A stretch of DNA of 64,000 nucleotides from Acetivibrio thermocellus ATCC 27405 (GTDB lineage Bacteria > Bacillota > Clostridia > Acetivibrionales > Acetivibrionaceae), in contig NC_009012.1 of assembly GCF_000015865.1 (NCBI RefSeq), positions 2,101,081 through 2,165,080 of the forward strand. Reading direction: 5' to 3'. Below are positions 30,704 to 44,034 of this stretch, one piece after another (position 1 is the stretch's first letter; every line of letters begins with the position of its first letter). The notes beneath the pieces are model-generated. The model was not told where the DNA came from, did not search any database, and saw only the letters and a program-made list of their open reading frames with translations. The position numbers and the translations under genes are program-made.

Positions 30704-31636
30704 TTAAGCCTTTCTTCTGTCTTTCACATAGGAACTTCCCGGTATGGATTTTGCTTTTTTCTTAAGCTCGGCGGCTATTTCAGAAATCTGAACATGGCTT
30801 ATAAGTTCCCTGACTTCGTTGGTTACTATGGCAAAAGAAATGGATATAAGCGGAAACTTCATTACCTGTCCCTGCCTGTTGCTGGTAACAATATATCCCC
30901 TTTTTAAATCTTCCTCGCAATAAAGGGATTTTGATTTTATGTCAAATTCTTCAATTATTCCTTTTACTATATCCTCGGCTTTATCCGGAGTCGACACTAT
31001 TATAAAGTCATCCCCTCCGACATGGCCTATGAAGTCGTTCTGGTTTCCATAACTACGAACATTATCAACAATAATATCGGCAGTAAGCTTTATAGCCCTG
31101 TCCCCACTTGCAAAGCCGTATACGTCATTGTACGCCTTGAAGTTGTCAAGGTCGGCGTAAATAACCGCAAAAAGCTGTTTTGTAGCTATCCTTTGGTTAA
31201 TTTCACTCTGTATCTCAATATTGCCCTGAAGCCCGGTCAATGGATTTGCCCACCGGTTTCTGTCTATGCGCCTCAGCGTGTTTCGAACTCTGCTCACAAG
31301 CTCTCTGGTGTTAAAGGGCTTCGTTATATAATCATCCGCACCCAGTTCCAGTCCTGTAAGCTTATCATCTTCATTATCTTGGGCCGTAAGCATGATAATA
31401 GGCATAAGGTTGTTGCCCTCGTCCTCTCTTAGAATTCTGCAGACTTCAAAACCATCCATATCGGGCATGACAACATCGAGCAAAACCAAATCCGGCTTCT
31501 CAATCCTGACCATTTCAATGCCTTGACGCCCATTAGACGCTGTTACCACTTCATAACCTTCGTTCATCAGGACATCGGATATTAGTTTTGTCATAAACTC
31601 AGTGTCATCAATAACCAATATTTTCTTCTTAAACAT
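30704..31636 (-). CDS. Response regulator with GGDEF domain (diguanylate cyclase)
   Basis: 310 residues. Receiver domain 1-120: KKILVIDDTEF, phospho-acceptor Asp in LVLLDVVMPDMDG (about 54), conserved Lys in YITKPF. A GGDEF domain follows, with active-site GGDDF (about 210) in place of GGDEF, a tolerated variant, so cyclic di-GMP synthesis is likely. Upstream DLDNFKAYNDVYGF is the usual nucleotide-binding segment. No partner kinase is adjacent. Confidence 0.88.
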   Translation of the reverse strand: MFKKKILVIDDTEFMTKLISDVLMNEGYEVVTASNGRQGIEMVRIEKPDLVLLDVVMPDMDGFEVCRILREDEGNNLMPIIMLTAQDNEDDKLTGLELGADDYITKPFNTRELVSRVRNTLRRIDRNRWANPLTGLQGNIEIQSEINQRIATKQLFAVIYADLDNFKAYNDVYGFASGDRAIKLTADIIVDNVRSYGNQNDFIGHVGGDDFIIVSTPDKAEDIVKGIIEEFDIKSKSLYCEEDLKRGYIVTSNRQGQVMKFPLISISFAIVTNEVRELISHVQISEIAAELKKKAKSIPGSSYVKDRRKA

Positions 31637-31784
31637 TTACTGTGAACTCCCATTAAGATAATTTTAGATATATTTTCCTTTATATATATCGGAATGAATG
31701 AGACAAATAATAACATTGTAATAATTATATAATAAAAATTTGATTTTGAACAGTTGAGTTTTCAAAACACATAAAAGGCCAAAC

Positions 31785-31819
31785 AAAAAAGCGGCGGCCT
31801 TCACAACCACCGCTTTTTT
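31785..31819 (-). terminator. Terminator of the dockerin protein gene
   Basis: AAAAAAGCGG-GG / CC-CCGCTTTTTT hairpin about 40 bp after the stop codon, T-rich on the minus strand. Confidence 0.85.
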
Positions 31820-31859
31820 ACAGCCAATATTCATCAACAATAAAGGATTTATGGCGGAA

Positions 31860-34800
31860 TTAATAGCGGGAAGGTAATGCGTTAAAATGCCTGATAACTA
31901 TAGCTATATCAAATAAATTGATTGCTCCGTCCATATTTAAGTCCAACTCAGCTACATATTCTTCATCTCCGGCTCTTGTGCCAAAAACTTTGGATATTTC
32001 CATCACATCCACCATATTAATAGCATTGTCTTGCACTCCTTTACGCTCTACATCCCCGGCCCATAATATGAGCGGATTGTCTTCAGTTGAAACCACTAAT
32101 TTTCCGGTTCCGTTCACCGTGACATTCCTTTTAAGATAATTTCGCTTGCTTATTTCCAATGTAAATTCCCTCATATCGCCGGGTATGCCGGATATTTCAA
32201 AATAACCTTTCTCGTCTGTCTTCGTTGACAATTCCGTTCCTGCAACTTTTACATTGAATCCTGATTTTATTTTTGATTCCGATTCCGGCGGATAATCAAA
32301 ATCAACCGAAATATAACCTGATACAGTGGTTTTATCAGTACTATCGTTGTTAACGCTTAACACTAAGGTTCTGGTGTTGTCACTGGTATAAATCTCTTCC
32401 TCATCTGCTACAACTGTAAAATACAGTATTTCCGTTTCTTTGTCCGCACAAAGTATCTTTTTGTCAAACTGATATTCATACTTCACTATATCGTCTGTGC
32501 TGTCAATAACCTTTGTGTCTATCACTTCACCGTCTTCACTGCCCTTTGTTACCTTTAAAGTTGCTCCTGTAGGCACATGGCTTAAGTTTATAATATTGGC
32601 AGTGACATATTCAATGTCTCCCTCACTGTATATCTCAAGCTGCAAAGAAATATCGGTATAGCCAATTGTAAACTGTTTAACATTGTCATCTGTGTTGTAT
32701 TCTTCGCCCTCTACGGTAGAAACCCTGATACTATATGCTTTTTTTGCTATGGTGTCCGGTAAATTCATCAATACAGTCGCTGTTTTGCTCTCTCCTGGTT
32801 TCAAGCTTATCTGAACTGCTTCAGAATTAATTATTTCGTCTCCGTCTAAAATATCAACAACCAATTCTTCAACACCAATTTCGCCATTATTGGTTACTTC
32901 AACATCAATTGCGAGCTGTGTGCCAGGTATAACTTTACTATGGTCGAAATTCACGCTGTCAATGGACAGATTGTAGGACGGAACAACCTTGATAATGCAT
33001 AAATCAGCCTGTTCATTTCCATCCTCCAGCAGGTATAATCTGCTAAATGCAATACTAAAGTTGCCTTCATCGTCAAAAACACCATCCGGAGATTGAACTT
33101 GGCCTGTAACATCCGATAGCTTTACAACATCACTCCATGCTGCCCGGTCTTCATCATAAATTGCTGTAAATATTGTACTTGAGCCCTTTGCTGTATTAGT
33201 CCAGATTATGGCCGTTTCACCATTGCTTCCTTCAACAACCTTAAAGTTGTCCTTCAGCCCGGGTTTCGATTCGCTAAAGACTCGGTTCGGCTCAGCGCCT
33301 ATTTGCGTTATATATAATATGTTACCTTCATTGTACCAATATAAAGCTCCCTCTCCATTGAAACTTGAAAATACAGGCGCAGAATCCATGGTATCATTAT
33401 CGGTAATCCTTATATCTTTATCACCGGGCTTTACAATGTATATTTCCATGTCATCTATTGTTTCAAGCATATCGTCCCCGTCCAAAGCATATGCAACTGC
33501 AAATGAGCCTTCAATAAACCCGGCACTTATGGATACAATTGCATTCAAGCCTTCACTAAGAAGTTCGGGACTTGACCATTCATTATCCTTAAGTTCACAG
33601 TAGTAGATTGAGTTTTCACCGTCCACACCGAATACATCGTTTTTATTGTTTGTAAACCATACTATGTAAGCATTACCATCTGATACGATTATTTGCGGCA
33701 GCATATCAACCACATCATTTTCTGTCAACCGAACGGCTGCTCCAAATGTGCCGGTTACTTCGTCAAATTTGCTGACGGCTATCTCACTCGAAGCCACAAC
33801 TTCTTCCAATGTTACATCTTCTGCAAAGGTTTTGTTGCTGTTTTGCCATACAACATAAAGGTCGTTTCCGTCCACTGCTAGTTGAGGATAGAAATCTGCC
33901 GTACCGTCATCATCTACTGCCACAGGTTCACTCCATATGCCGCTGTTCTTATCATACACAGAATAAACCAGCATAGTTCTGTTGGCAGAGGTTCTGTCGG
34001 GATTATCGGCAATCCACACCAAAACCTGTTTATCCTCCAAATTCACCAGTTGCGGCTGAGCATCAGGATATATATTGGTTCCTAAAACTTTAAGTTCCTT
34101 ATTGGTAAATCCTGTTGCCATTGACCGCATTAACCGCCGATTTCCCAACCATTCTGACGGCCTTTCAATATAATCCCTCGGCATCATTTTATATTCATCT
34201 GCATTGTACAAATCGAATTGAGCATTTATGTTGGGACTTGCCATCCTTAAGCGAGGTTTTGATTCATAAAGAACCCAGGTACCTTTTGCAATTTCTTTTT
34301 CAGCACTGAAGAAATATGACGAAACCTTTAGTTTCAAGCTTCCCGTCAATGTAACCTTTAAATAATCTTCCGAACCGGTAATAATAAGAAATTCAAGTTC
34401 TGCTTCTCCCGAACCGCCAACCGTCAATACTTTTACTAAACCGACTCCGGCGCCGAGTTCAAAACGCGGTGTCACTTTTAACTCTGAATTAAGCATAATT
34501 CTGCCGGTTTCAAAATCAACCCTGAGGATGTCACTAATAAGCTCCATCTCGAGACCGCCGGCTATTTCAAAGTAAACAGGAACAGGTCCTATAAAGTATT
34601 GTTTCTGTCCTCTGTATTCTGCCTCTACTATTACAGCGAACGAACCCCTGGTTGCTACAGGTATACCGTTAATAAACACACCTTCAATGTAGCCATAGGC
34701 TTCCACTTCCGGTTCCCAATCATCTTTAATGCTAAAACTACCTTTCTTTGAGCCCAGCTTTTTCATTCTGTTTCTTAATTCTTTCGCAGAAGCCTTACTA

Positions 34801-37800
34801 TTCTTGGCATCTTCAAAATACTTTACAAAATTATCCCATTTTTTATCAAGGCTTTCCTTATCTTCTATCCCAATTGCAATCCTAAAATCTTTTTCTCCGT
34901 ATTTCACCATTCCCGGAATATGATCAAAGCTGAACTCCACCTCAGTACCGCCTATAACCGGTAAGTCTTCGGGAACCAGGATATTTGTTTCTTTTCCGAG
35001 CTTGAAAGGCATTTCTTCCACTTCATATGCCATGTCCACCTTTACAGTACATGTATCTTTTTTCCCTTCATAGGATGCCGTTATCAAAGTTGTTCCTTTC
35101 TTTGTTCCGCTTTTTATATATTTATTACCGTAATACTCGTCTACATAAGCAATATTTCTGTCTCCGGACGTAAACAGGACATAATCTGTAATATCAACCT
35201 CGTAATCATCGTATACTGCCATGACTTTCACTTGTGAACCCCATTTGTTGAACTCAGCTATTGTATCTTCTTTTGGAGTTATACACAACGCCCGGAGTTT
35301 TTCTCCGCCGGCCGGTTTAACTTGCACACTGCATACCGCTTTCATTCCATCATAATCGGCGGTAATTGTTGCAGTTCCAAATTGTGTACCGCTTTTAACA
35401 TATCCATTCACCACCGATGCCACATTGCTGTTGCTGCTTGAAAATTTTGCCTTACTTGTTACATCAACAGTTGTGTTACATTTTGAACATACTACCTTTA
35501 CATATATTGGACTTTCAGTAGCATTGCTTCCGCCCAAGGTTATTCTATCGGGAGTTATAGTTATTTTGGAAAATTTATGTTGCGGCGGTATAACAGATGT
35601 TGAAATAACAGTGCCACACTTGGTACAACGTCCTTCTTTCAATCCCTCCTCCGTGCATGTTGCTTCTTTTATTATTTTATATGAACCGTTAAACTGATGC
35701 GAGCCTCCAAGGGGAGGAATTTCTTTAGTTGCTACCACCGTTTTACATCTGCTGCATCTACCTTCCGCCAGTCCCGGATCTGTACATGTCGGTTTTTTTA
35801 CTGTGGTAAATGAACCGTTAAATTGGTGTGCGCCGCCAAGGGCTGGAATAGGTGCTGTTGCTACCTCTTCTCCGCATTTTGTACATTTTCCTACCTTTAA
35901 TCCTTCTTCTGTACATGTCGGTTCCTTTACCGTTGTAAATGAACCGTTAAATTGGTGCCCTGTTGGTGATATTTCTTCCGTTTTACGCACAGAACATCTT
36001 GAACATGTTCCTTCCCTGAGCCCTTTCTCCGTACAAGTTGCTTCCTTTATTGTCTTCCATGAACCGAAGTCATGCCCCAATTCAGGTATCGGTGTCGTCG
36101 TAACTGTTGCTCCGCACCTGGTGCAACGACCTTCCTTCAGTCCTTTCTCTGTACATGTCGGTTCTTTTACTGTGGTAAATGAACCGTTAAACTGATGATC
36201 ACCGCCAAGGGCCGGAATAGGTGCTGTTGCTACTACCTCTCCGCATTTTGTACATCTTCCTTCTCTTACTCCTTCTTCTGTACATGTCGGTTTCTTTACC
36301 GTTGTAAATGAACCGTTAAATTGGTGTCCTGTTGGTGATATTTCTTCCGTTTTACGCACAGAACATCTTGAACATGTTCCTTCCCTGAGCCCTTTCTCCG
36401 TACAGGTTGCTTCCTTTATTGTCTTCCACGAACCGAAGTCATGCCCTAATTCAGGTATCGGTGCCGTCGTAACTGTCGCTCCGCACCTGGTGCAACGACC
36501 TTCCTTCAGTCCCTTCTCTGTACATGTCGGTTCTTTTACTGTGGTAAATGAACCGTTAAACTGATGATCACCGCCAAGGGCCGGAATAGGTGCTGTTGCT
36601 ACCACCTCTCCGCATTTTGTACATTTTCCTACCTTTAATCCTTCTTCTGTACATGTCGGTTCCTTTACCGTTGTAAATGAACCGTTAAATTGGTGCCCTG
36701 TTGGTGATATTTCTTCCGTTTTACGCACAGAACATCTTGAACATGTTCCTTCTCTGAGCCCTTTTTCCGTACAGGTTGCTTGCTTTATTGTTTTCCATGA
36801 ACCGAAGTCATGCCCTAACTCTTTTATCTCTACTGACGAAACAACTTCCCCACATTTTGTACATTTTCCTACCTTTGTACCAGTCGTTGTACATGTCGGC
36901 TCCTTTATTGTCGTATAAGACCCGTTGAATGTATGCCCTGTTGCAGATATCGAACGCGTCTCACTTGCAGTACATCCGCTTCTGGTACATGTCCTCTTTT
37001 CTGTTCCGGCAGTAGTACAAGTCGCCGCTTTAGTTACCGTCCACGACCCATAACTATGTCCCAATGCAGGTATCTCTACTGTGGATACTGTCGTCCCGCA
37101 TTTTGTACATTTTCCTACCTTTGTACCGGCTGTTGTACATGTTGCTTCTTTGGTAACCGTATAAGAACCATTGAATGTATGTCCTGTTGCAGATATCGAA
37201 CGCGTCTCACTTGCAGTACATCCGCTTCTGGTACATGTCCTCTTTTCTGTTCCGGCAGTAGTACAGGTCGCCGCTTTAGTTACCGTCCACGACCCATAAC
37301 TATGTCCCAGTGCAGGTATCTCTACTGTGGATACTGTCGTCCCGCATTTTGTACATTTTCCTACCTTTGTACCGGCTGTTGTACATGTTGCTTCTTTGGT
37401 AACCGTATAAGAACCATTGAATGTATGTCCTGTTGCCTTTATCGTTTGGGTTTCAACATTTTTACATCTTGAGCAGGTTCTTTTTTGGCTTCCGTCTGTA
37501 GTACAGGTTGCTGCTTTAGTTACCGTCCACGATCCATAACTATGTCCCAATGCAGGTATCGTAACTGTAGATACTGTCGCCCCGCATTTTGTACATTTTC
37601 CTACCTTTGTACCGGTCGTTGTACATGTTGCTTCTTTGGTAACCGTATAAGAACCATTGAATGTATGTCCCGTTGCCTTTATCGTTTGGGTTTCAACATT
37701 TTTACATCTTGAGCAGGTTCTTTTTTGGCTTCCGTCTGTAGTACAGGTTGCTGCTTTAGTTACCGTCCATGATCCATAACTATGTCCCAATGCAGGTATC

Positions 37801-38393
37801 GTAACTGTAGAAACAATTGCTCCGCATTTTGTACATTTTCCTACTTTTGTACCGGTCGTTGTACATGTTGGTTCTTTAGTAACTGTATAAGAACCGTTAA
37901 ATTGATGGGAGCATGATGCTGCCAAAACTACACTGCTTAAAGAAGCGTATGTTACAATATTGCTCAAATTTTCTTCATTTTTTTCAACAAATAATGCATT
38001 TCCTACAGGTTCAATATCATTCATATCCAAGTTGGATATGGTATTATCTTTATCACTGTCGGAAGTGCATTTACAACTGCATGCTTCATGTCCGGCTTTG
38101 CAAGCTTTGTGTTCGTCAGAATCACTTATTTCTTCATGACCGGCTTCGCAGCTTTCGTTACCGGTGCAATCGCATATTTCTTCATGACTGACTTCACAGC
38201 CTTCGTTACCAGTGGAATCACATATTTCTTCATGGCTAGTTTCACAGTTTTCGAGGTGAGAGTTTATGAGATGTACAAATGGATCTTCAAAAGCATTTTG
38301 TGCACTTACCGCACCTATATTAGGTGTCTCAAGACAAAAAGACAAGAACAAAAACACAATTAGGGCAGCAGAAATAAAACTTTTCTTTTTCAT
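31860..38393 (-). CDS. Giant secreted multidomain protein with His/Cys repeats and C-terminal X-module-type II dockerin
   Basis: 2177 residues. Order: signal peptide (1-32); acidic Cys/His-rich 16-residue repeats (about 50-108); 19 tandem units of about 40 residues (about 163-938), each with one His and three Cys (H-x14-C-x9-C-x2-C); two Ig-like (BIG2-type) domains (about 940-1120); an unassigned beta-rich part; a propeller-like WY/DG-rich region (about 1400-1810); a CARDB-like domain (about 1815-1930); an X-module (2024-2110); and a dockerin (2111-2177). The last two resemble the X-module/type II dockerin of scaffoldin CipA, so the protein should bind type II cohesins of cell-surface anchors rather than CipA. 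No catalytic domain recognised. GGGGGG precedes the ATG. Confidence 0.9.
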   Translation of the reverse strand: MKKKSFISAALIVFLFLSFCLETPNIGAVSAQNAFEDPFVHLINSHLENCETSHEEICDSTGNEGCEVSHEEICDCTGNESCEAGHEEISDSDEHKACKAGHEACSCKCTSDSDKDNTISNLDMNDIEPVGNALFVEKNEENLSNIVTYASLSSVVLAASCSHQFNGSYTVTKEPTCTTTGTKVGKCTKCGAIVSTVTIPALGHSYGSWTVTKAATCTTDGSQKRTCSRCKNVETQTIKATGHTFNGSYTVTKEATCTTTGTKVGKCTKCGATVSTVTIPALGHSYGSWTVTKAATCTTDGSQKRTCSRCKNVETQTIKATGHTFNGSYTVTKEATCTTAGTKVGKCTKCGTTVSTVEIPALGHSYGSWTVTKAATCTTAGTEKRTCTRSGCTASETRSISATGHTFNGSYTVTKEATCTTAGTKVGKCTKCGTTVSTVEIPALGHSYGSWTVTKAATCTTAGTEKRTCTRSGCTASETRSISATGHTFNGSYTTIKEPTCTTTGTKVGKCTKCGEVVSSVEIKELGHDFGSWKTIKQATCTEKGLREGTCSRCSVRKTEEISPTGHQFNGSFTTVKEPTCTEEGLKVGKCTKCGEVVATAPIPALGGDHQFNGSFTTVKEPTCTEKGLKEGRCTRCGATVTTAPIPELGHDFGSWKTIKEATCTEKGLREGTCSRCSVRKTEEISPTGHQFNGSFTTVKKPTCTEEGVREGRCTKCGEVVATAPIPALGGDHQFNGSFTTVKEPTCTEKGLKEGRCTRCGATVTTTPIPELGHDFGSWKTIKEATCTEKGLREGTCSRCSVRKTEEISPTGHQFNGSFTTVKEPTCTEEGLKVGKCTKCGEEVATAPIPALGGAHQFNGSFTTVKKPTCTDPGLAEGRCSRCKTVVATKEIPPLGGSHQFNGSYKIIKEATCTEEGLKEGRCTKCGTVISTSVIPPQHKFSKITITPDRITLGGSNATESPIYVKVVCSKCNTTVDVTSKAKFSSSNSNVASVVNGYVKSGTQFGTATITADYDGMKAVCSVQVKPAGGEKLRALCITPKEDTIAEFNKWGSQVKVMAVYDDYEVDITDYVLFTSGDRNIAYVDEYYGNKYIKSGTKKGTTLITASYEGKKDTCTVKVDMAYEVEEMPFKLGKETNILVPEDLPVIGGTEVEFSFDHIPGMVKYGEKDFRIAIGIEDKESLDKKWDNFVKYFEDAKNSKASAKELRNRMKKLGSKKGSFSIKDDWEPEVEAYGYIEGVFINGIPVATRGSFAVIVEAEYRGQKQYFIGPVPVYFEIAGGLEMELISDILRVDFETGRIMLNSELKVTPRFELGAGVGLVKVLTVGGSGEAELEFLIITGSEDYLKVTLTGSLKLKVSSYFFSAEKEIAKGTWVLYESKPRLRMASPNINAQFDLYNADEYKMMPRDYIERPSEWLGNRRLMRSMATGFTNKELKVLGTNIYPDAQPQLVNLEDKQVLVWIADNPDRTSANRTMLVYSVYDKNSGIWSEPVAVDDDGTADFYPQLAVDGNDLYVVWQNSNKTFAEDVTLEEVVASSEIAVSKFDEVTGTFGAAVRLTENDVVDMLPQIIVSDGNAYIVWFTNNKNDVFGVDGENSIYYCELKDNEWSSPELLSEGLNAIVSISAGFIEGSFAVAYALDGDDMLETIDDMEIYIVKPGDKDIRITDNDTMDSAPVFSSFNGEGALYWYNEGNILYITQIGAEPNRVFSESKPGLKDNFKVVEGSNGETAIIWTNTAKGSSTIFTAIYDEDRAAWSDVVKLSDVTGQVQSPDGVFDDEGNFSIAFSRLYLLEDGNEQADLCIIKVVPSYNLSIDSVNFDHSKVIPGTQLAIDVEVTNNGEIGVEELVVDILDGDEIINSEAVQISLKPGESKTATVLMNLPDTIAKKAYSIRVSTVEGEEYNTDDNVKQFTIGYTDISLQLEIYSEGDIEYVTANIINLSHVPTGATLKVTKGSEDGEVIDTKVIDSTDDIVKYEYQFDKKILCADKETEILYFTVVADEEEIYTSDNTRTLVLSVNNDSTDKTTVSGYISVDFDYPPESESKIKSGFNVKVAGTELSTKTDEKGYFEISGIPGDMREFTLEISKRNYLKRNVTVNGTGKLVVSTEDNPLILWAGDVERKGVQDNAINMVDVMEISKVFGTRAGDEEYVAELDLNMDGAINLFDIAIVIRHFNALPSRY
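31863..32324 (-). other. X-module plus type II dockerin coding segment
   Basis: Residues 2024-2110 (VSGYISVDF ... GYFEISGIPGD ... RNYLKRNV) match the pattern of the CipA X-module. Residues 2111-2177 hold two Ca-loop helices: GDVERKGVQDNAINMVDV (about four residues longer than the CipA loop I recall) and the regular DLNMDGAINLFD. Recall-based comparison, not an alignment. Confidence 0.75.
35580..37907 (-). repeat. 19-unit tandem repeat (about 120 bp each) in the giant gene
   Basis: Encodes alternating sub-types starting H(T/Q)FNGS and H(S/D)(Y/F)GSW, each followed by TC, a gap of nine, then CxxC. Two units have CxxxxC (CTRSGC) instead. The 3' half contains near-identical three-unit blocks (FNGS-FNGS-FGSW), implying recent duplication by unequal crossing over. 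Confidence 0.9.
38070..38246 (-). repeat. Short 48-bp repeats coding acidic Cys/His-rich units
   Basis: Four 16-residue units of the type C-E-x-x-HEEICDxTGNEx, with the last ones diverged, ending in a CSCKC cluster. Cys, His, Glu and Asp make up most of the segment. Confidence 0.8.
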
Positions 38394-38800
38394 ATTAACC
38401 CCCCATAATATTTTTCTTTCTCACTCTACTAATATAAAGGAAGTCCTTCTATTTTTCCTTACTATGCTTCTCACCCTCCTTTCTGATTTAGCTGTTAATC
38501 AAAAACCTTCTTATGTAGATGTATTTTCAATACACTCCTACATACCAAGGCATTTAAATACACTCGTACAATTCGCAAAAATCAGTGGCGTATATTTCTT
38601 TAATAAATCGGATTAGGCCTGAAAATATCTACAAATACAAGTTAAATAACTCTTTTTGTATAAAATCCCCATATAACCCCTTGTAGTTCCAAACAAATCA
38701 ATTAAAAACATTTTTATACAACATATAGCCCATCCAATATATTGACAAAATATTCTGCTTTACCAGAGTTGTGCATTGAAAAGTAAATAGCTGTATTACC
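38394..38800. promoter_or_regulatory. Upstream region of the giant gene with a 33-bp palindrome
   Basis: Interrupted palindrome TATGTAG-a-TGTATT / AATACA-ctc-CTACATA at 38512-38544, about 120 bp before the start codon and not followed by a T run, so more like an operator or leader hairpin than a terminator. No clear -10/-35. The rest is AT-rich with no ORF. Confidence 0.4.
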
Positions 38801-38859
38801 AATAAAGTGGTAAAATAAAAGCATAAGTTGACGTAATGTGATAGTTTCGAATTATCGAG

Positions 38860-39545
38860 AAACAAAACCATACAGTAAATATGATCTCAGGCATTATTTG
38901 CACTGAGGGAAACAAAAATGTTTCTACCATATATTCAATACTTGTAACCGGGACAGGAGCTGCGATTCAAGGTTTCTCGGAGAGTATAGTGGGATAATAA
39001 ATATATGGACTATAAAAGCAACAAAGCAAAGAAGTGCTTTAAGAATAAACAAGGGCTTGTAATGCTTCTTATCGATGAATTTGCACCGGTCACAAAAACA
39101 ACATACTTATTGTCAGATGCCTGGTATACATCTGGAAAACTGGTGCTCCATGCCTTAAGTACAGGTTACCACACAATTGGATGAATAAAATCCAAAGGTG
39201 AGAATACTTACTACGTTTTATAGGTATGAGGGAAAAATCAATAGCTTTGAAAACGCTGTTATCTTGTTTTGCTGGAGCAAGTCCGATTTATCCGATGAAC
39301 CAGTATTTAAACTAAGTACGGATGTTAGCATCATCACCTCCGAAATATTATATATTACCAGAACCGCTGGGATATTGAAGTAAGTTAACGTTATCAAAAG
39401 AACTCACCTGGATTTGATAAATACCAGCTATAATTCCTAACCTCAATAAAGCGCTTCTGGACTTGGTTTTTATTGCTAAGTTTGCATACGGTTGTGCAGT
39501 TAAATGAGTAATTGTCGATGCTGTTATTACTAAATTAGGGATGGA
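38860..39545 (+). pseudogene. Decayed DDE transposase (IS701-like), many frameshifts
   Basis: Conceptual translation in shifting frames gives, in order, MISGIICTEGNKNVSTIYS, NRDRSCDSRFLGEY, LLSDAWYTSGKLVLHALSTG, YEGKINSFENAVILFCWSKS, LSTDVS, NRWDIE and LDLVFIAKFAYGCA. These are conserved landmarks of IS4-superfamily/IS701-type transposases. Several stops and frame changes make it dead. The small frame at 39198-39383 is part of this relic. I could not find clear terminal repeats. Confidence 0.75.
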
Positions 39546-39725
39546 AGTATAGAAATTTACAATTTACTGCACACCATAAATACTTTATATTAAATTATAT
39601 CACAAATAAAGCTTATTTTGTGCAATTTTTATTAAACAATAGATATTTTTTCATTTTACTTTAAAAATAAAATAACTAAGAATTCTCTTTTCGTGATATA
39701 CTTATAGAGAAGGAGATGATTTAAA

Positions 39726-39935
39726 TTGGCACAATTTTGTACTTGCGGTTCATTGATTGTCAATGACAGTTGTACCAACAAAAATTGTAGCAACCGAAAA
39801 GCAAGCAAGCTTTCTTCTGCAGCAAAAAAAAGCGCTAAAGCAGCCAATGCTGCCACGCCTTCCAAAAGTACCCGAACAAGAAGGGCGTCAAAATGTATTA
39901 CTTACAATTTGTATGATAAAAAAGAAGAGAGTTAA
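39726..39935 (+). CDS. Small basic protein with zinc-knuckle N-terminus (69 aa)
   Basis: TTG start with AAGGAG ten nt upstream. The N-terminus MAQFCTCGSLIVNDSCTNKNC holds four Cys (CxC plus CxxxxC), a likely small zinc site. A Lys/Ala/Ser-rich middle, histone-tail-like, follows, then a conserved-looking RTRRASKCITYNLYD end. The composition suggests nucleic-acid binding. I do not recognise a named family. A candidate -10 TATACT lies at 39697-39702. Confidence 0.65.
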   Translation: MAQFCTCGSLIVNDSCTNKNCSNRKASKLSSAAKKSAKAANAATPSKSTRTRRASKCITYNLYDKKEES

Positions 39936-39948
39936 CCGACTCTCTTCC
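39924..39948. terminator. Hairpin after the small zinc protein gene
   Basis: Perfect stem AAGAGAGT/ACTCTCTT with a 6-nt loop overlapping the end of the small gene. No T run follows on the plus strand, so termination is uncertain. Confidence 0.4.
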
Positions 39949-40035
39949 TATGAAGCCCTTCGCAACACTAATTATCAAACCATCTTTTATCAGGCCGTTC
40001 TTTATTAAATCACTCTATTAAATTAAATCACTCTG

Positions 40036-41700
40036 TTAAACCGGATCATATCCGACCACAGTCCATATTCCCGTGCTGTCCTGTCTTATCAGTCTTTTTA
40101 AATAAACCCTGCGCACAGGTGTGTTATCACCGCTTATCTCCACTACCGCCTCTATGCCGTTGTTTTTTACAACCTCCATGTCTTCATAACTTACCGGATA
40201 TTCTCCTTCAATGCCTTCAGGAGAAATTTTCAGGCTTACAAATACTTGTGCGACATAAACAGGATCCAGTTTCCACGGTGAATGTCCCGCATCCACGCTT
40301 TTTTGCTCATTTTTCTCGACTTTCAGATCAACCGGAACTTCAATCTGAGGCTTCTCTGGGGTTTCTTCGTTTTCCGGCGGTATCTCAACCGGACCTGTTG
40401 TTATACTTTCAATGAATGAAATCAATTCATTCATTGGCGCATCGCCTATCACAGCATATTCAAATCCGGATTCCTGCCAGCGAATCGAGCGGATATCCGC
40501 CATCCCTGAATACATTCCTCCTTCAAGCACTCCAGGACTGTCCTGCACAGGAGACTGAATTTCGGCAGTATTGCCGCCCACCTTGCCTAAAACCGCTGTT
40601 GATGCAGGTTTAAACTCATCCGTTGCTTTTTTCTGCAAAATAATTACCCGGCTTTTCTTATCCTGGGATATATAGCTTAGCTTGACGGTTTTCATATCCC
40701 CTGTAACTGCCATGCCGTTTCTTGTATATCCCCCGGGAACATTTTGGGGTATTTGGGGAGTAAAACCGGCTGTTTCCGCAGCTTCTTCAACGCTGCCGAC
40801 CTGCAGTTCGGGATTCTTATCTATTTCCTTAAAGCCTTGCGGCAAGCTATAAGCAAGAAGCTCACCGGGTATATTGTCGCCAAACTCAATGCTGGTATAG
40901 GTTACCCTGTATTGAATTGCATTCATCATAGCACTCTCTTTTTGAAGCGGCAGATTCGTCTCCTTGTCAATCCATATTTTGTAGGATTCCCCTCCTCTGG
41001 GCAGTACCTCAAATACAGAGGTTTCTCTTCCCGCAACCATCTCTTCTCCCACGGCTTTGATTTGTTCGGCATTTTTGGCATCTTTTATTTCATTGCCAAG
41101 TTCCAAGGTGAATTTGTATGGATCGGGGAATGATGGAAAGATGTATACTTGTTCTTCAGCAGGACTCACCTGCCACTTTTTTTCGCCGTTGTTTACGGTT
41201 ATCAAGCCTTTCTGAAAGCCCTGAAGCTCTTTTACATAGTAGCGTCCCTCGCTGTCCGCCCAAACCTCCCGCATTGCCTGCAAAGTCTCTTCTCCATTGA
41301 GATTGGTTTCAACAATGCTGAGGATTCCGTGATATGCTTTAACTTCCTTATATGCCTGCTCCATGGCGTATACAATGTCGGTTCTGCCGGAATACAGTAC
41401 AAAATTCAGTACAAAAACCAGGACAGCAACTGCCGCAACAGCAGCCGCTCCGGCCAGCCATGTCCATTTTCTTTTTCCGGCGGCGGATTTTTGCGATAAT
41501 TGAGCACTGACTACCCGGGCCAGCTTTTTTGGATAATCCGCATCCGGCAGAGCAGGCTCCTTCAGACTTCGAATTTTTCTTACCGTATCCATAAGTTCCT
41601 CCAATTCCGGTGAATCCGGCAGACACTCGTGCTCGTCAGGCATTTTCTCGGCATTTAATTTATCAATGTATTCGGATAATTTCTTTTCATTTTTGTCCAT
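40036..41700 (-). CDS. Membrane anti-sigma factor with extracellular RseB/LolA-like domain
   Basis: 554 residues. Cytoplasmic N-terminus (about 1-80) with the acidic/helical look of an anti-sigma domain but no zinc HxxxCxxC motif; one TM helix (WLAGAAAVAAVAVLVFVLNFVLY, 20-plus residues, about 85-107); an extracellular beta-rich region resembling lipoprotein-sorting/MucB-type sensors (about 110-300), a further domain, and a Pro-rich linker before a C-terminal domain. AAGGAGG lies well before the ATG. Together with the ECF sigma gene at 43.3-43.8 kb it formed an operon, now split by an IS110 element whose end is 37 bp upstream of this start codon. Confidence 0.75.
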   Translation of the reverse strand: MDKNEKKLSEYIDKLNAEKMPDEHECLPDSPELEELMDTVRKIRSLKEPALPDADYPKKLARVVSAQLSQKSAAGKRKWTWLAGAAAVAAVAVLVFVLNFVLYSGRTDIVYAMEQAYKEVKAYHGILSIVETNLNGEETLQAMREVWADSEGRYYVKELQGFQKGLITVNNGEKKWQVSPAEEQVYIFPSFPDPYKFTLELGNEIKDAKNAEQIKAVGEEMVAGRETSVFEVLPRGGESYKIWIDKETNLPLQKESAMMNAIQYRVTYTSIEFGDNIPGELLAYSLPQGFKEIDKNPELQVGSVEEAAETAGFTPQIPQNVPGGYTRNGMAVTGDMKTVKLSYISQDKKSRVIILQKKATDEFKPASTAVLGKVGGNTAEIQSPVQDSPGVLEGGMYSGMADIRSIRWQESGFEYAVIGDAPMNELISFIESITTGPVEIPPENEETPEKPQIEVPVDLKVEKNEQKSVDAGHSPWKLDPVYVAQVFVSLKISPEGIEGEYPVSYEDMEVVKNNGIEAVVEISGDNTPVRRVYLKRLIRQDSTGIWTVVGYDPV

Positions 41701-41737
41701 GAAGCCATACCTCCTTGTACAATATAGTTAGTTTTTC

Positions 41738-41793
41738 GACGTGCTGAAAAATCAACTTTAAGCTCTTTGACAACCACATAGGAATTCTGATAC
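41738..41793 (+). repeat. Left inverted repeat of the IS110 element
   Basis: Pairs with 43233-43297; perfect 17-bp core at 41765-41781 and outer GACGTGCT at 41738-41745. Confidence 0.8.
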
Positions 41794-41799
41794 CTTTTG

Positions 41800-42008
41800 T
41801 CTAAATTATTCTCGTAGTGGCAGGGGGCTTCGATCTACCTCCTTGGGAAGCTTAACTGTCCCGATTTAAAGAGTGTTGCCCCTCCCCTATGAGATGTTTC
41901 GAATGAGCACGTTGTGGATGCGGCTTGCTGCATGCCTCGAGTCACGAGCAAGGTTGAAACTCATAGGGAGCTGCGGGAAACCCTGCCAAATAATCAGAAA
42001 GTAGGGAT
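41800..42008 (+). ncRNA. Candidate bridge RNA of the IS110 element
   Basis: The non-coding left end has rich pairing: a closing stem CCCTATGAG (41885-41893) / CTCATAGGG (41960-41968), inside it CTTGCT/AGCAAG and CTCG/CGAG, and downstream GCGGG/CCTGC; upstream GAAGCTT-like pairing near 41828-41852. IS110-group elements encode a target- and donor-pairing bridge RNA in exactly this left end. No loops have been matched to target or donor sequences here. Confidence 0.6.
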
Positions 42009-42012
42009 TAAC

Positions 42013-43233
42013 ATGTTCTATGGTGGTATTGATGTAGCCAAGTATCGTCATGAGATTTGTATTGTGGATGAAAGCGGTAATGTAATCCTCCAAATTTTTG
42101 TGGATAATACTAGAAATGGCCTTGATAAACTCATTCATAACTTGAAGCGATTAGAAATCGAAGTGAGTAATGTTGAGTTTTGTTTGGAAGCTACCGGCCA
42201 CTACTGGCTAAGTCTTTACTACCACCTTACAGAGTTGGGGTATAAAATCCATGTGATAAATCCTATCCAATCCGATGCTTTACGTAATTTCTATGTCCGT
42301 AAAACTAAAACAGATCGTAAGGATGCTCACCTTCTTGCAGATATCGTTCGTTTTGGTCATATTTCTGAAACCAAACTTGCTTCAGAAACTGTTCTTAAGC
42401 TGCAAAACCTATCACGGCTTCGTTTCGAATTTGTCCGGCAAGTGGGTGGGCTAAAAAACAGGGTTCTAGGTATCCTTGATAGGATCTTTCCTGAATACCC
42501 GCAATGTTTTTCTAATGTTTTTATTAATACATCCCGGGAATTGCTTAAGTCTTTTACTGCACCAGAAGACCTGGCTGAAGCAGATCTATCAGAGCTAACC
42601 GATTTTTTAAATAAGCATTCTCGGGGTAGGTTGGGAGTTGATCGGGCCAAACAGATACAGGCTCTGGCTAAAGGCACTTTTGGCATTAATATTGCACTAG
42701 ATGCTTTTACTCTTGAACTTCGATTATTAGTCGAACAAATTGAATTTATCGAAGAACAAATCAGTGTTATAGAAGAAGCCATTGACCAAGTTATGGAGGA
42801 AATGCGGCCTAGTAAGGATACTGCTTATCGACATGTTTTAGAGACTATCCCTGGTATTGGGCCTGTTCTTGCTGCTTCAATTATTGGAGAAATTGGCGAT
42901 ATTAACCGCTTTCCTAATGCTAAGGCTCTTGTGGCTTATGCTGGTTTAGATGCAACTGTGCGCTCTTCCGGTCAGTTTGAGGGTACCCGTAATCGTATTT
43001 CAAAAAGGGGTTCTCCTGTCCTAAGGCATAGTATTTGGCTCGCTGCTGTTTCTGCTAGACGTTTCAATCCGGAAATGAAAGAGTTTTTTGAGAAAAAACG
43101 CAGTGAAGGAAAGCATACCTTGGTTGCAACGGGTGCCGTAGCTCGCCGTATGGTTCACTTGATATACTCTCTATGGAAAGATAACAGGCCTTTTGACCCT
43201 AACTATCAATGGTCACCCACAAACTCTCGTTAG
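42013..43233 (+). CDS. IS110-family transposase (DEDD recombinase)
   Basis: 406 residues from the ATG at 42013 (MFYGGIDVAKYRHEICIVD), preceded by AGGGAT; the frame is open 33 codons further upstream, but that part lies in the structured non-coding end. The N-terminal RuvC-like DEDD domain has GIDVAK (Asp), CLEATG (Glu) and TDRKDAHLLAD (Asp/Asp). A coiled middle follows, then the C-terminal Tnp_20 domain ETIPGIGPVLAASIIGEIG ... RFPNAKALVAYAGL ... SSGQFEG with the candidate catalytic Ser. No frameshifts, so probably active. Confidence 0.95.
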   Translation: MFYGGIDVAKYRHEICIVDESGNVILQIFVDNTRNGLDKLIHNLKRLEIEVSNVEFCLEATGHYWLSLYYHLTELGYKIHVINPIQSDALRNFYVRKTKTDRKDAHLLADIVRFGHISETKLASETVLKLQNLSRLRFEFVRQVGGLKNRVLGILDRIFPEYPQCFSNVFINTSRELLKSFTAPEDLAEADLSELTDFLNKHSRGRLGVDRAKQIQALAKGTFGINIALDAFTLELRLLVEQIEFIEEQISVIEEAIDQVMEEMRPSKDTAYRHVLETIPGIGPVLAASIIGEIGDINRFPNAKALVAYAGLDATVRSSGQFEGTRNRISKRGSPVLRHSIWLAAVSARRFNPEMKEFFEKKRSEGKHTLVATGAVARRMVHLIYSLWKDNRPFDPNYQWSPTNSR

Positions 43234-43297
43234 TACCAGAATCTCTATGTGGTTGTCAAAGAACAATTAAATATTTGTTGACTTTTCATAGCACGTC
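43233..43297 (-). repeat. Right inverted repeat of the IS110 element
   Basis: Begins at the transposase stop codon and ends with AGCACGTC at 43290-43297, two bases before the sigma gene's stop codon. Confidence 0.8.
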
Positions 43298-43298
43298 T

Positions 43299-43838
43299 TT
43301 ACATTAAATTATTGTCTTTAAGTATTGAAGCAAGGTTTTTCAATGCTCTGTACTGCAGCACACGGACAGTGGTTTCTTTCTTATCAATGATTTTTGCGGT
43401 TTCCGTCACCGAATAGCCTTTGAGTATTCTCAGTTCAACCACCATACGCTGTTCCTCGCTAAGGCTGCCAAGAGCCTTTCGTATCAATTCTCTCTGCGCA
43501 CTTATCTCTGCCGTATCTTCAGCTGCAGTCTCTTCCGGGCTTATGGCTTCGATATTCACACTTGTACCCCGGCGTTTCCTCTTACGCCATCTGTCCCGTA
43601 GGATATTTAGCGCAACGGTTTTTAAGAATCCTGTAAATTGTTCTATTTGTGTGTCGTTTTTTTGTAAATGGGAAAGTGCTTTGACGTAGGTTTCCTGCGT
43701 TATATCCTCAGCTTCCTGGCGGTTTTGAACTTTATAATACACAAAGCGGTACACAGTCTCCCACGTTAAAGAGCAGATATCCTCTATTGATTTTAAATCA
43801 CCGTCCTGCGCTTTTTTTAATGTTTCCTCCTTCAGCAT
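43299..43838 (-). CDS. ECF-type RNA polymerase sigma factor
   Basis: 179 residues from the ATG at 43836-43838 (AAAGGAG nine nt upstream); the frame is open 29 codons further but into the promoter. Sigma region 2 (about 20-90, with DITQETYVKAL), a basic linker (RWRKRKRRG), and region 4 (about 120-175) with a helix-turn-helix GYSVTETAKIIDKKETTVRV. It directs RNA polymerase to stress-type promoters and should be held by the anti-sigma factor at 40.0-41.7 kb. The stop codon lies two bases from the IS110 right end, so the element may have altered the end of the gene. Confidence 0.9.
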   Translation of the reverse strand: MLKEETLKKAQDGDLKSIEDICSLTWETVYRFVYYKVQNRQEAEDITQETYVKALSHLQKNDTQIEQFTGFLKTVALNILRDRWRKRKRRGTSVNIEAISPEETAAEDTAEISAQRELIRKALGSLSEEQRMVVELRILKGYSVTETAKIIDKKETTVRVLQYRALKNLASILKDNNLM

Positions 43839-43881
43839 ACTTCTTAGCTCCTTTTCCCGGCCGGTTATATATACACTAATA

Positions 43882-43910
43882 ATAACGTTTTGGAGAGTAT
43901 TAATGTTACA
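43882..43910 (-). promoter_or_regulatory. ECF-type promoter upstream of the sigma gene
   Basis: Minus strand TGTAAC (43905-43910), exactly 17 bp, CGTTAT (43882-43887): the AAC -35 and CGT -10 pattern of ECF sigma targets, about 45 bp before the sigma start codon. Suggests autoregulation. Confidence 0.55.
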
Positions 43911-43992
43911 TTTAGTTATTGCCATTTTTTATTAGGTGAATAAAGAGTATTTTTTGGAAGTGAAAGCAAAAGTCCCAACAAACAATAAAATA

Positions 43993-44034
43993 CCCCCATT
44001 TATCGGCGATATTTAAATCACCGATAAATGGAGG
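43993..44034 (-). terminator. Terminator of the blaI-blaR1 pair
   Basis: Long stem CCATTTATCGG (43996-44006) / CCGATAAATGG (44021-44031), extended inward by GAT/ATC, with moderate T content after it on the minus strand. Confidence 0.7.

Follow-up and report, generated by a model that had tools for sequence, protein, structure and literature searches.

The CipB locus

The window analysed here is a stretch of 64,000 nucleotides from Acetivibrio thermocellus ATCC 27405 (contig NC_009012.1, positions 2,101,081 to 2,165,080), to which coordinates refer unless another locus is named. On its reverse strand, nucleotides 38393-31860 encode a protein of 2177 amino acids, Cthe_1806, which is CipB of C. 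thermocellum. Brás et al. 2016 (PMC5141474) named this protein CipB. Their layout runs from a signal peptide through four modules without an assigned function to an X-module and type II dockerin; within the four modules they count 19 repeats, each 41 residues long and with three cysteines conserved. The features that we could place along the ORF are as follows.

31860-38393, reverse strand: CipB (Cthe_1806) ORF, 2177 amino acids plus stop codon; length and locus tag agree with PMC5141474
38298-38393, reverse strand: signal peptide, approximately residues 1-32, boundary set by eye; signal peptide stated in PMC5141474
37908-38297, reverse strand: acidic His/Cys-rich N-terminal stretch, residues 33-162
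35580-37907, reverse strand: 19 tandem repeats of about 40 amino acids, residues 163-938, each with a His and then Cys-x9-Cys-x2/4-Cys
35052-35576, reverse strand: Ig-like region, residues 940-1114, matched over part of its length by DUF3869 (32.6 bits, cut-off 24.5)
34149-35051, reverse strand: core part 1, a long-strand beta-rich domain in the AlphaFold2 model, residues 1115-1415, predicted with lower confidence than the propeller
32970-34100, reverse strand: core part 2, predicted beta-propeller, residues 1432-1808 (model residues 318-694)
32364-32969, reverse strand: CARDB-like region, residues 1809-2010, weak in CipB (17 bits, cut-off 22.7)
32061-32354, reverse strand: X-module, residues 2014-2111, aligned with residues 1-98 of PDB chain 5k39_B and identical to it from residue 2024; boundary according to PMC5141474
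31860-32060, reverse strand: type II dockerin plus stop codon, residues 2112-2177, identical to residues 99-164 of 5k39_B

No Pfam match at an E-value of 0.1 was found in residues 1-162 or in core part 1 (residues 1115-1415). When whole CipB was compared with PDB sequences at an E-value of 0.01, the sole matches besides those of the dockerin tail were to two teneurin-like proteins, over residues 972-1025. The depositors of the PDB entry for the X-module and dockerin of CipB (together termed XDoc) gave the protein the name 'Ig domain protein group 2'.

The C-terminus of CipB is an X-module and type II dockerin

The initial annotation had read nucleotides 31860-32324 of the reverse strand (CipB residues 2024-2177 plus the stop codon) as a CipA-like X-module followed by a type II dockerin, and both alignment and residue look-up bear this out. 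By phmmer against PDB sequences, the best match of this 154-residue tail was the CipB XDoc itself (5k39_B/5m0y, E-value 1.1e-99), with 154 of 154 aligned letters identical, and with whole CipB as the query residues 2014-2177 aligned with chain residues 1-164 of 5k39_B; the crystallized protein and the ORF described here are the same, with no difference between them. The next five chains were XDocs of CipA and of the A. cellulolyticus-type scaffoldin (E-values of 5.6e-36 to 2.7e-34, whole length), so that six XDoc chains match the CipB tail over all 154 residues, and the CipA (ScaA) XDoc (PDB 2b59, 5.6e-36) consists of an X-module and type II dockerin as in CipB. When 11 contact or specificity residues were looked up by PDB numbering (R104, M114, M118, S121, F124, G125, N146, L147, F148, I154 and N158), each was the one that PMC5141474 names, and a loss of key type II contacts, which would have spoken against the assignment, was not found among them.

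Dockerins borne by enzymes aligned with the tail over about 50 residues only, with E-values of 3.4e-5 for 2y3n (the dockerin of a family-48 enzyme), 9.1e-4 for endoglucanase A and 0.6 for CelS. We take 2y3n to be a type II dockerin of Bacteroides cellulosolvens, and the dockerins of endoglucanase A and CelS to be of type I. CipB as a type I dockerin subunit was therefore rejected, the type I-like matches spanning about 50 residues as against E-values of 1e-34 or better for the XDocs. Pfam matches the CipB dockerin with Dockerin_1 (29 bits, cut-off 22.9), but the type II dockerin of CipA matches the same model at 50.4 bits, so that this label cannot separate the two types and was rejected as an argument for type I. 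Dockerin_1 gave no match at an E-value of 0.001 in the A. mesophilus orthologue, even though the XDoc there shares 75% identity with the CipB one. In the literature, the expression tables of PMC5223564 and PMC3990059 carry Cthe_1806 with the label of a type I dockerin, and a figure legend in PMC2668762 had already singled out Cthe1806 as the one subunit to carry a type II dockerin.

A direct attachment of the type II dockerin to anchoring cohesins had also been proposed, together with a binding test on those of SdbA, Orf2p or OlpB. We take SdbA to be ScaF, Orf2p to be ScaC and OlpB to be ScaB. The cohesins of such a test are largely covered in print by the set used in PMC5141474, which supports the proposal for the isolated XDoc. 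That study presents structures of the CipB XDoc in complex with ScaC and ScaF cohesins. It reports binding to each of the six type II cohesins evaluated and none to the ScaA type I cohesins, with Ka estimated at >1e9 per M for ScaC2 as well as ScaF and given as about 1e7 for ScaE6 (PMC5141474). In CipB the contact with ScaF is made by helix 1 and that with ScaC2 by helix 3, and CipA does the reverse (PMC5141474). The type II nature of the CipB tail is therefore already known; as crystal structures and calorimetry have settled it since 2016, the assignment as such is not news.

No function for CipB was found among the open-licence papers listed, although subscription journals may hold one; what is accessible of PMC8063739 and PMC12484212 treats its dockerin only. 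Clo1313_2479, the homologue in the laboratory strain C. thermocellum DSM 1313, which PMC6083626 pairs with Cthe_1806 with the figure 93, is described in the accessible part of PMC5604425 as a cellulosomal subunit with no role assigned, and as significantly downregulated in a comparison of soluble with insoluble substrates. The same open-licence literature yielded no earlier report of the conserved histidine, the core family or the Asn/Gly survey described below, and we claim nothing beyond that.

Calcium loop and specificity positions

About four additional residues (ERKG) in the first calcium loop had been pointed out as a feature of this dockerin. The loop is indeed four residues longer than that of the CipA XDoc; however, it is not unusual. 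Among the best-ranked 30 of many more matching XDoc loci (CipB and CipA included, with up to 64 scored per genome), the first loop was long in 23, CipB being one of them, and short in six, including CipA, the remaining locus giving a partial match. ERKG therefore represents the common loop length, and is ruled out as a peculiarity of CipB. The XDoc of A. cellulolyticus ScaA (4u3s, 4wi0) likewise has the long loop.

According to PMC5141474, Asn at positions 125 and 158 (PDB numbering) is tied to ScaF binding and Gly to ScaC2 binding. In the same 30 best-ranked loci, Asn at both positions was the commonest state (19/30); we also found four D/N, one N/D, two G/N, two N/G, one G/L, which comes from a weak match, and one truncated sequence. 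The two G/N loci are CipB and one P. cellulosolvens XDoc, and the two N/G loci are CipA and one from genome G031, so that CipA and CipB depart from N/N in opposite halves of the dockerin and show a reversed Asn/Gly pair. A. cellulolyticus ScaA, for which dual binding is reported (PMC5141474), has Asn in both halves in its natural form, whereas CipB has Gly and Asn; this natural form is locus L049, which by eye is the 4u3s dockerin except for the engineered residue and lies in the same genome as L085, a relative of CipB discussed below. G125, L147 and F148 of CipB are absent from all six other CipB-kind XDocs that were aligned. Of the CipB orthologues, that of A. mesophilus is D/N and that of P. 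cellulosolvens N/N, and the Asn pair of the latter would predict two-way binding. The simplest reading of these sequences, which we offer as a lead, is that CipA and CipB of C. thermocellum may each have lost one Asn, in opposite dockerin halves. This would give a simple, testable account of why two type II dockerins of C. thermocellum face opposite ways.

CipB is not a scaffoldin

The view of this protein as a non-scaffoldin stands. No Pfam model for a cohesin or CBM matched CipB at E-values up to 1, and none of the 29 cohesin matches in the genome falls inside the CipB frame. CipB as a scaffoldin was accordingly rejected, there being no cohesin in the chain; CipA, by contrast, carries cohesins. 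The statement that it holds no recognisable enzyme domain was upheld as well: besides the DUF3869 match listed above, only Dockerin_1 scored above its cut-off in the Pfam and NCBIfam searches, NCBIfam itself giving nothing above its cut-offs, and sub-threshold Pfam matches, for example that of Abhydrolase_8 to 25 residues within a repeat, are probably due to chance.

A further suggestion, that CipB might compete with or replace scaffoldins at the cell surface, is not supported, given both the missing cohesin and CBM matches and the incomplete occupancy of type II cohesins stated in PMC5604425. In its stronger form, CipB would compete with CipA for type II cohesins and so regulate the amount of cell-bound cellulosome. 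Such competition is possible in principle, since the two XDocs have similar in vitro affinities for the six type II cohesins tested (PMC5141474), and the RNA-Seq table of PMC3990059 (poplar/cellobiose) lists Cthe_1806 among cellulosomal genes with a ratio of 3.3. We nevertheless consider it very unlikely from published occupancy: the proteome in PMC5604425 gives ratios of ScaA to type II cohesins of 0.26, 0.27, 0.51, 0.61, 0.63 and 0.65, which, together with the incomplete occupancy, indicate that the type II cohesin sockets are not limiting. In addition, the values for CipA in the PMC3990059 table (2135 and 363) far exceed those for Cthe_1806 (95 and 29).

Predicted structure of the core

An AlphaFold2 model of the core, built with 27 sequences, reached a mean pLDDT of 78.6 and a pTM of 0.59. 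Model residues 115-263 form long strands and residues 318-690 a propeller, in which most blocks scored above 85. By this prediction the fold of the core is that of a propeller. Structure comparison by VIA-align, which barely covers the beta domain before the propeller, placed PLL-type lectins first (6gxs_B, Z 27.7, rmsd 3.2, 313 aligned residues, 10% identity) along with CylK at Z 27.0, followed by lyases at about Z 24 (rhamnose-glucuronate lyase 7esk_A, 24.1; oligogalacturonate lyase 3c5m_B, 24.0). The top matches lay at Z 26-28, and propellers of other kinds reached 24-27. With Foldseek, sialidases led (E-value 5.8e-10), with TM values below 0.6 among the matches listed. The PLL-type propeller lectins (PLL, PHL and CV39L) would thus have a propeller fold in common with the CipB core, a likeness at the level of the predicted fold rather than of sequence, the identity being 10-13%. 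A lectin is our first guess for the modelled propeller, and a guess only, as the propeller is a common fold which sialidases and several lyases match too.

These same matches raise the alternative that the core is a propeller-type polysaccharide lyase or hydrolase outside present family models, which would make CipB a docked catalyst. The propeller does match the lyases 7esk_A and 3c5m_B, sialidases top the Foldseek list, and related cores occur in Monoglobus and other gut MAGs. Against this, no enzyme family exceeded its cut-off in CipB with either Pfam or NCBIfam, so that a recognised catalytic module, by which a cellulosomal enzyme is judged, was not found above cut-off, and the lectin propellers outrank the enzymes, albeit by a few Z units only. 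We think a catalytic core unlikely.

The His/Cys repeats

To describe the repeats, 106 units were taken from eight proteins by their cysteine pattern. In 105 of the 106 units a His precedes the first Cys by 12-14 residues, and in the remaining one by 10-11; each of the three Cys columns is kept in 105/106, and conservation above 90% is otherwise reached by three columns, T, T and G. As the units were picked by the Cys pattern, the His alone is an independent result, and since repeats within a protein are copies of each other its count does not stand for 106 independent events. Divergent repeats outside the 106 units, in G017:C41 (L143), by eye mostly keep the His, including in a shortened form. 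The repeat alignment matched eight of 60 genomes, its own included, and in its own genome all matches lie within the CipB frame. A four-repeat model (pLDDT 94.0) predicts three strands per repeat; a search of PDB structures with it gave nothing above Z 2.7, and the fold may be missing from the list searched.

Many structural zinc sites are built from one His and three Cys. The four conserved putative ligands in each repeat, as a zinc-ribbon-like repeat would have, may on this ground form a possible metal site.

It could be argued that the repeats are the payload, as a surface metal store or a metal-dependent adhesin, and that the core is a spacer. Two short relatives without the core, L087 (G003, 441 amino acids) and L145 (G012, 346 amino acids), fit this reading, each beginning with a signal-like stretch and carrying two or three repeats, a single Ig-like domain and an XDoc, which in L145 is truncated. 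The cysteine pattern is, on the other hand, absent from 22 of the 27 core loci and occurs as a single match in one more, and we regard a payload of repeats alone as improbable next to one of core and repeats together. The L087 locus also holds an ORF of 360 amino acids, and adjoining L087 in G003 is a cut CARDB and XDoc remnant.

Relatives of the core and their tethers

CipB residues 1130-2010 matched 18 of 60 genomes, its own included, at an E-value of 1e-5 or better, and the scan of genome contigs gave 27 core loci. These occur in A. mesophilus, P. cellulosolvens (two), A. alkalicellulosi, Clostridia MAGs, including gut MAGs, and a Paenibacillaceae MAG, and one is a weak archaeal match; CARDB was matched at an E-value of 0.1 in 20 of the 27 members of the core alignment. 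For their tethers, seven proteins were scanned with domain models and the remaining loci were read by eye. Repeats, core and XDoc are found together in A. mesophilus L103 (5' end beyond the contig), the MAG locus L102 (cut), L083 of G017 and P. cellulosolvens L104 (2378 amino acids), and L101 has repeats and core on a contig that ends before any XDoc. On other related cores the tether is a type I dockerin (L085 and L105, 46% and 37% identical to CipB), as in the A. cellulolyticus-like and A. alkalicellulosi relatives, or three SLH stretches (L113, L120 and L123) or CWB2 (L122), the SLH and CWB2 cases being 27-37% identical to CipB, and L120 being without the first part of the core.

As related cores occur without an XDoc, the tether appears to be an exchangeable part, and the type I dockerins of the A. 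cellulolyticus-like and A. alkalicellulosi relatives indicate that surface docking is not the conserved property. P. cellulosolvens integrates enzymes by type II interactions (PMC4582573), and its core, like the type I versions, may ride with enzymes. Considered with those versions, this suggests that the property kept is attachment to the cohesin network and not to the cell surface as such. The P. cellulosolvens orthologue L104 has an added Peptidase_S8 (subtilase) domain before the repeats (E-value 2e-24), where CipB has its acidic His/Cys-rich stretch. A protein of G049 (L138) joins a subtilase domain to 15 His/Cys repeats, without the CipB core.

A bolder proposal, against which the odds seem to us slightly tilted, would unite these observations. 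The proteins would make up a clostridial family of surface proteins that has gone unrecognised, with a single propeller core in common, the tether of which would have been exchanged in evolution: a CipB-kind XDoc in C. thermocellum, A. mesophilus and P. cellulosolvens, a type I dockerin in the A. cellulolyticus-like and A. alkalicellulosi forms, and SLH or CWB2 elsewhere. The repeats would be a chain of HCCC metal sites, and the loss by CipA and CipB of one each of two ancestral Asn residues, in opposite halves, would have turned a two-way plug into two mirror-image one-way plugs.

CipB as a probable docked accessory protein

CipB is most likely a docked accessory and not a scaffoldin. In the explanation that we favour, to which we would assign a probability of roughly 0.85 as a whole, CipB plugs through its XDoc into type II cohesins of anchoring scaffoldins, as an accessory with the core and the His/Cys repeats as its payload, the steps that concern the payload being proposals. 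The XDoc, with two bound calcium ions, would plug the secreted protein into these cohesins, and CipB would thereby belong to the cohesin network of the cell surface but not to CipA; for full-length CipB in the cell, we infer this docking from in vitro work on the isolated XDoc. The payload would comprise the conserved core (beta domain, propeller and CARDB) and the repeat array. The propeller may bind a ligand, either a glycan or some other surface or substrate component, and the His and three Cys of each repeat may together coordinate a single metal ion, probably zinc. Interest shifts to the approximately 2000 residues before the XDoc, which carry no recognised enzyme. In one of the leading cellulose degraders they would sit on the cohesin network, and their core is kept across cellulosome-bearing and gut Clostridia. 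If this core is a lectin or adhesin, CipB could aid the holding of plant fibre independently of CipA.

Neighbouring genes and a third X-module protein

No Rfam match at gathering scores was found in 31000-44000, and the promoter scan stayed near shuffled sequence (27 found and 24.5 expected; terminators, three and 5.8). Upstream of CipB, no ORF in the 1.6-kb gap exceeds 116 amino acids. Directly downstream of CipB, the ORF at 30704-31636 on the reverse strand has the look of a response regulator, one half of it being GGDEF-like. Such a gene also follows CipB in A. mesophilus (93% identity), and no match to it was found at P. cellulosolvens L104. Between the upstream neighbour of CipB and a sigma-factor-like ORF lies an ORF on the forward strand (41914-43233), presumably an IS110-family transposase from the way it reads.

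Elsewhere in the same genome (G000:C1:3471047-3471391), a third X-module protein with a signal-like start is encoded (L142, an ORF of 257 amino acids from base 1126), the dockerin of which diverges from the other dockerins beyond the first loop. An adjoining ORF on the opposite strand reads to us like an IstB/IS21-type ATPase. L142 appears to be a third gene for a type II dockerin, disrupted in this strain.
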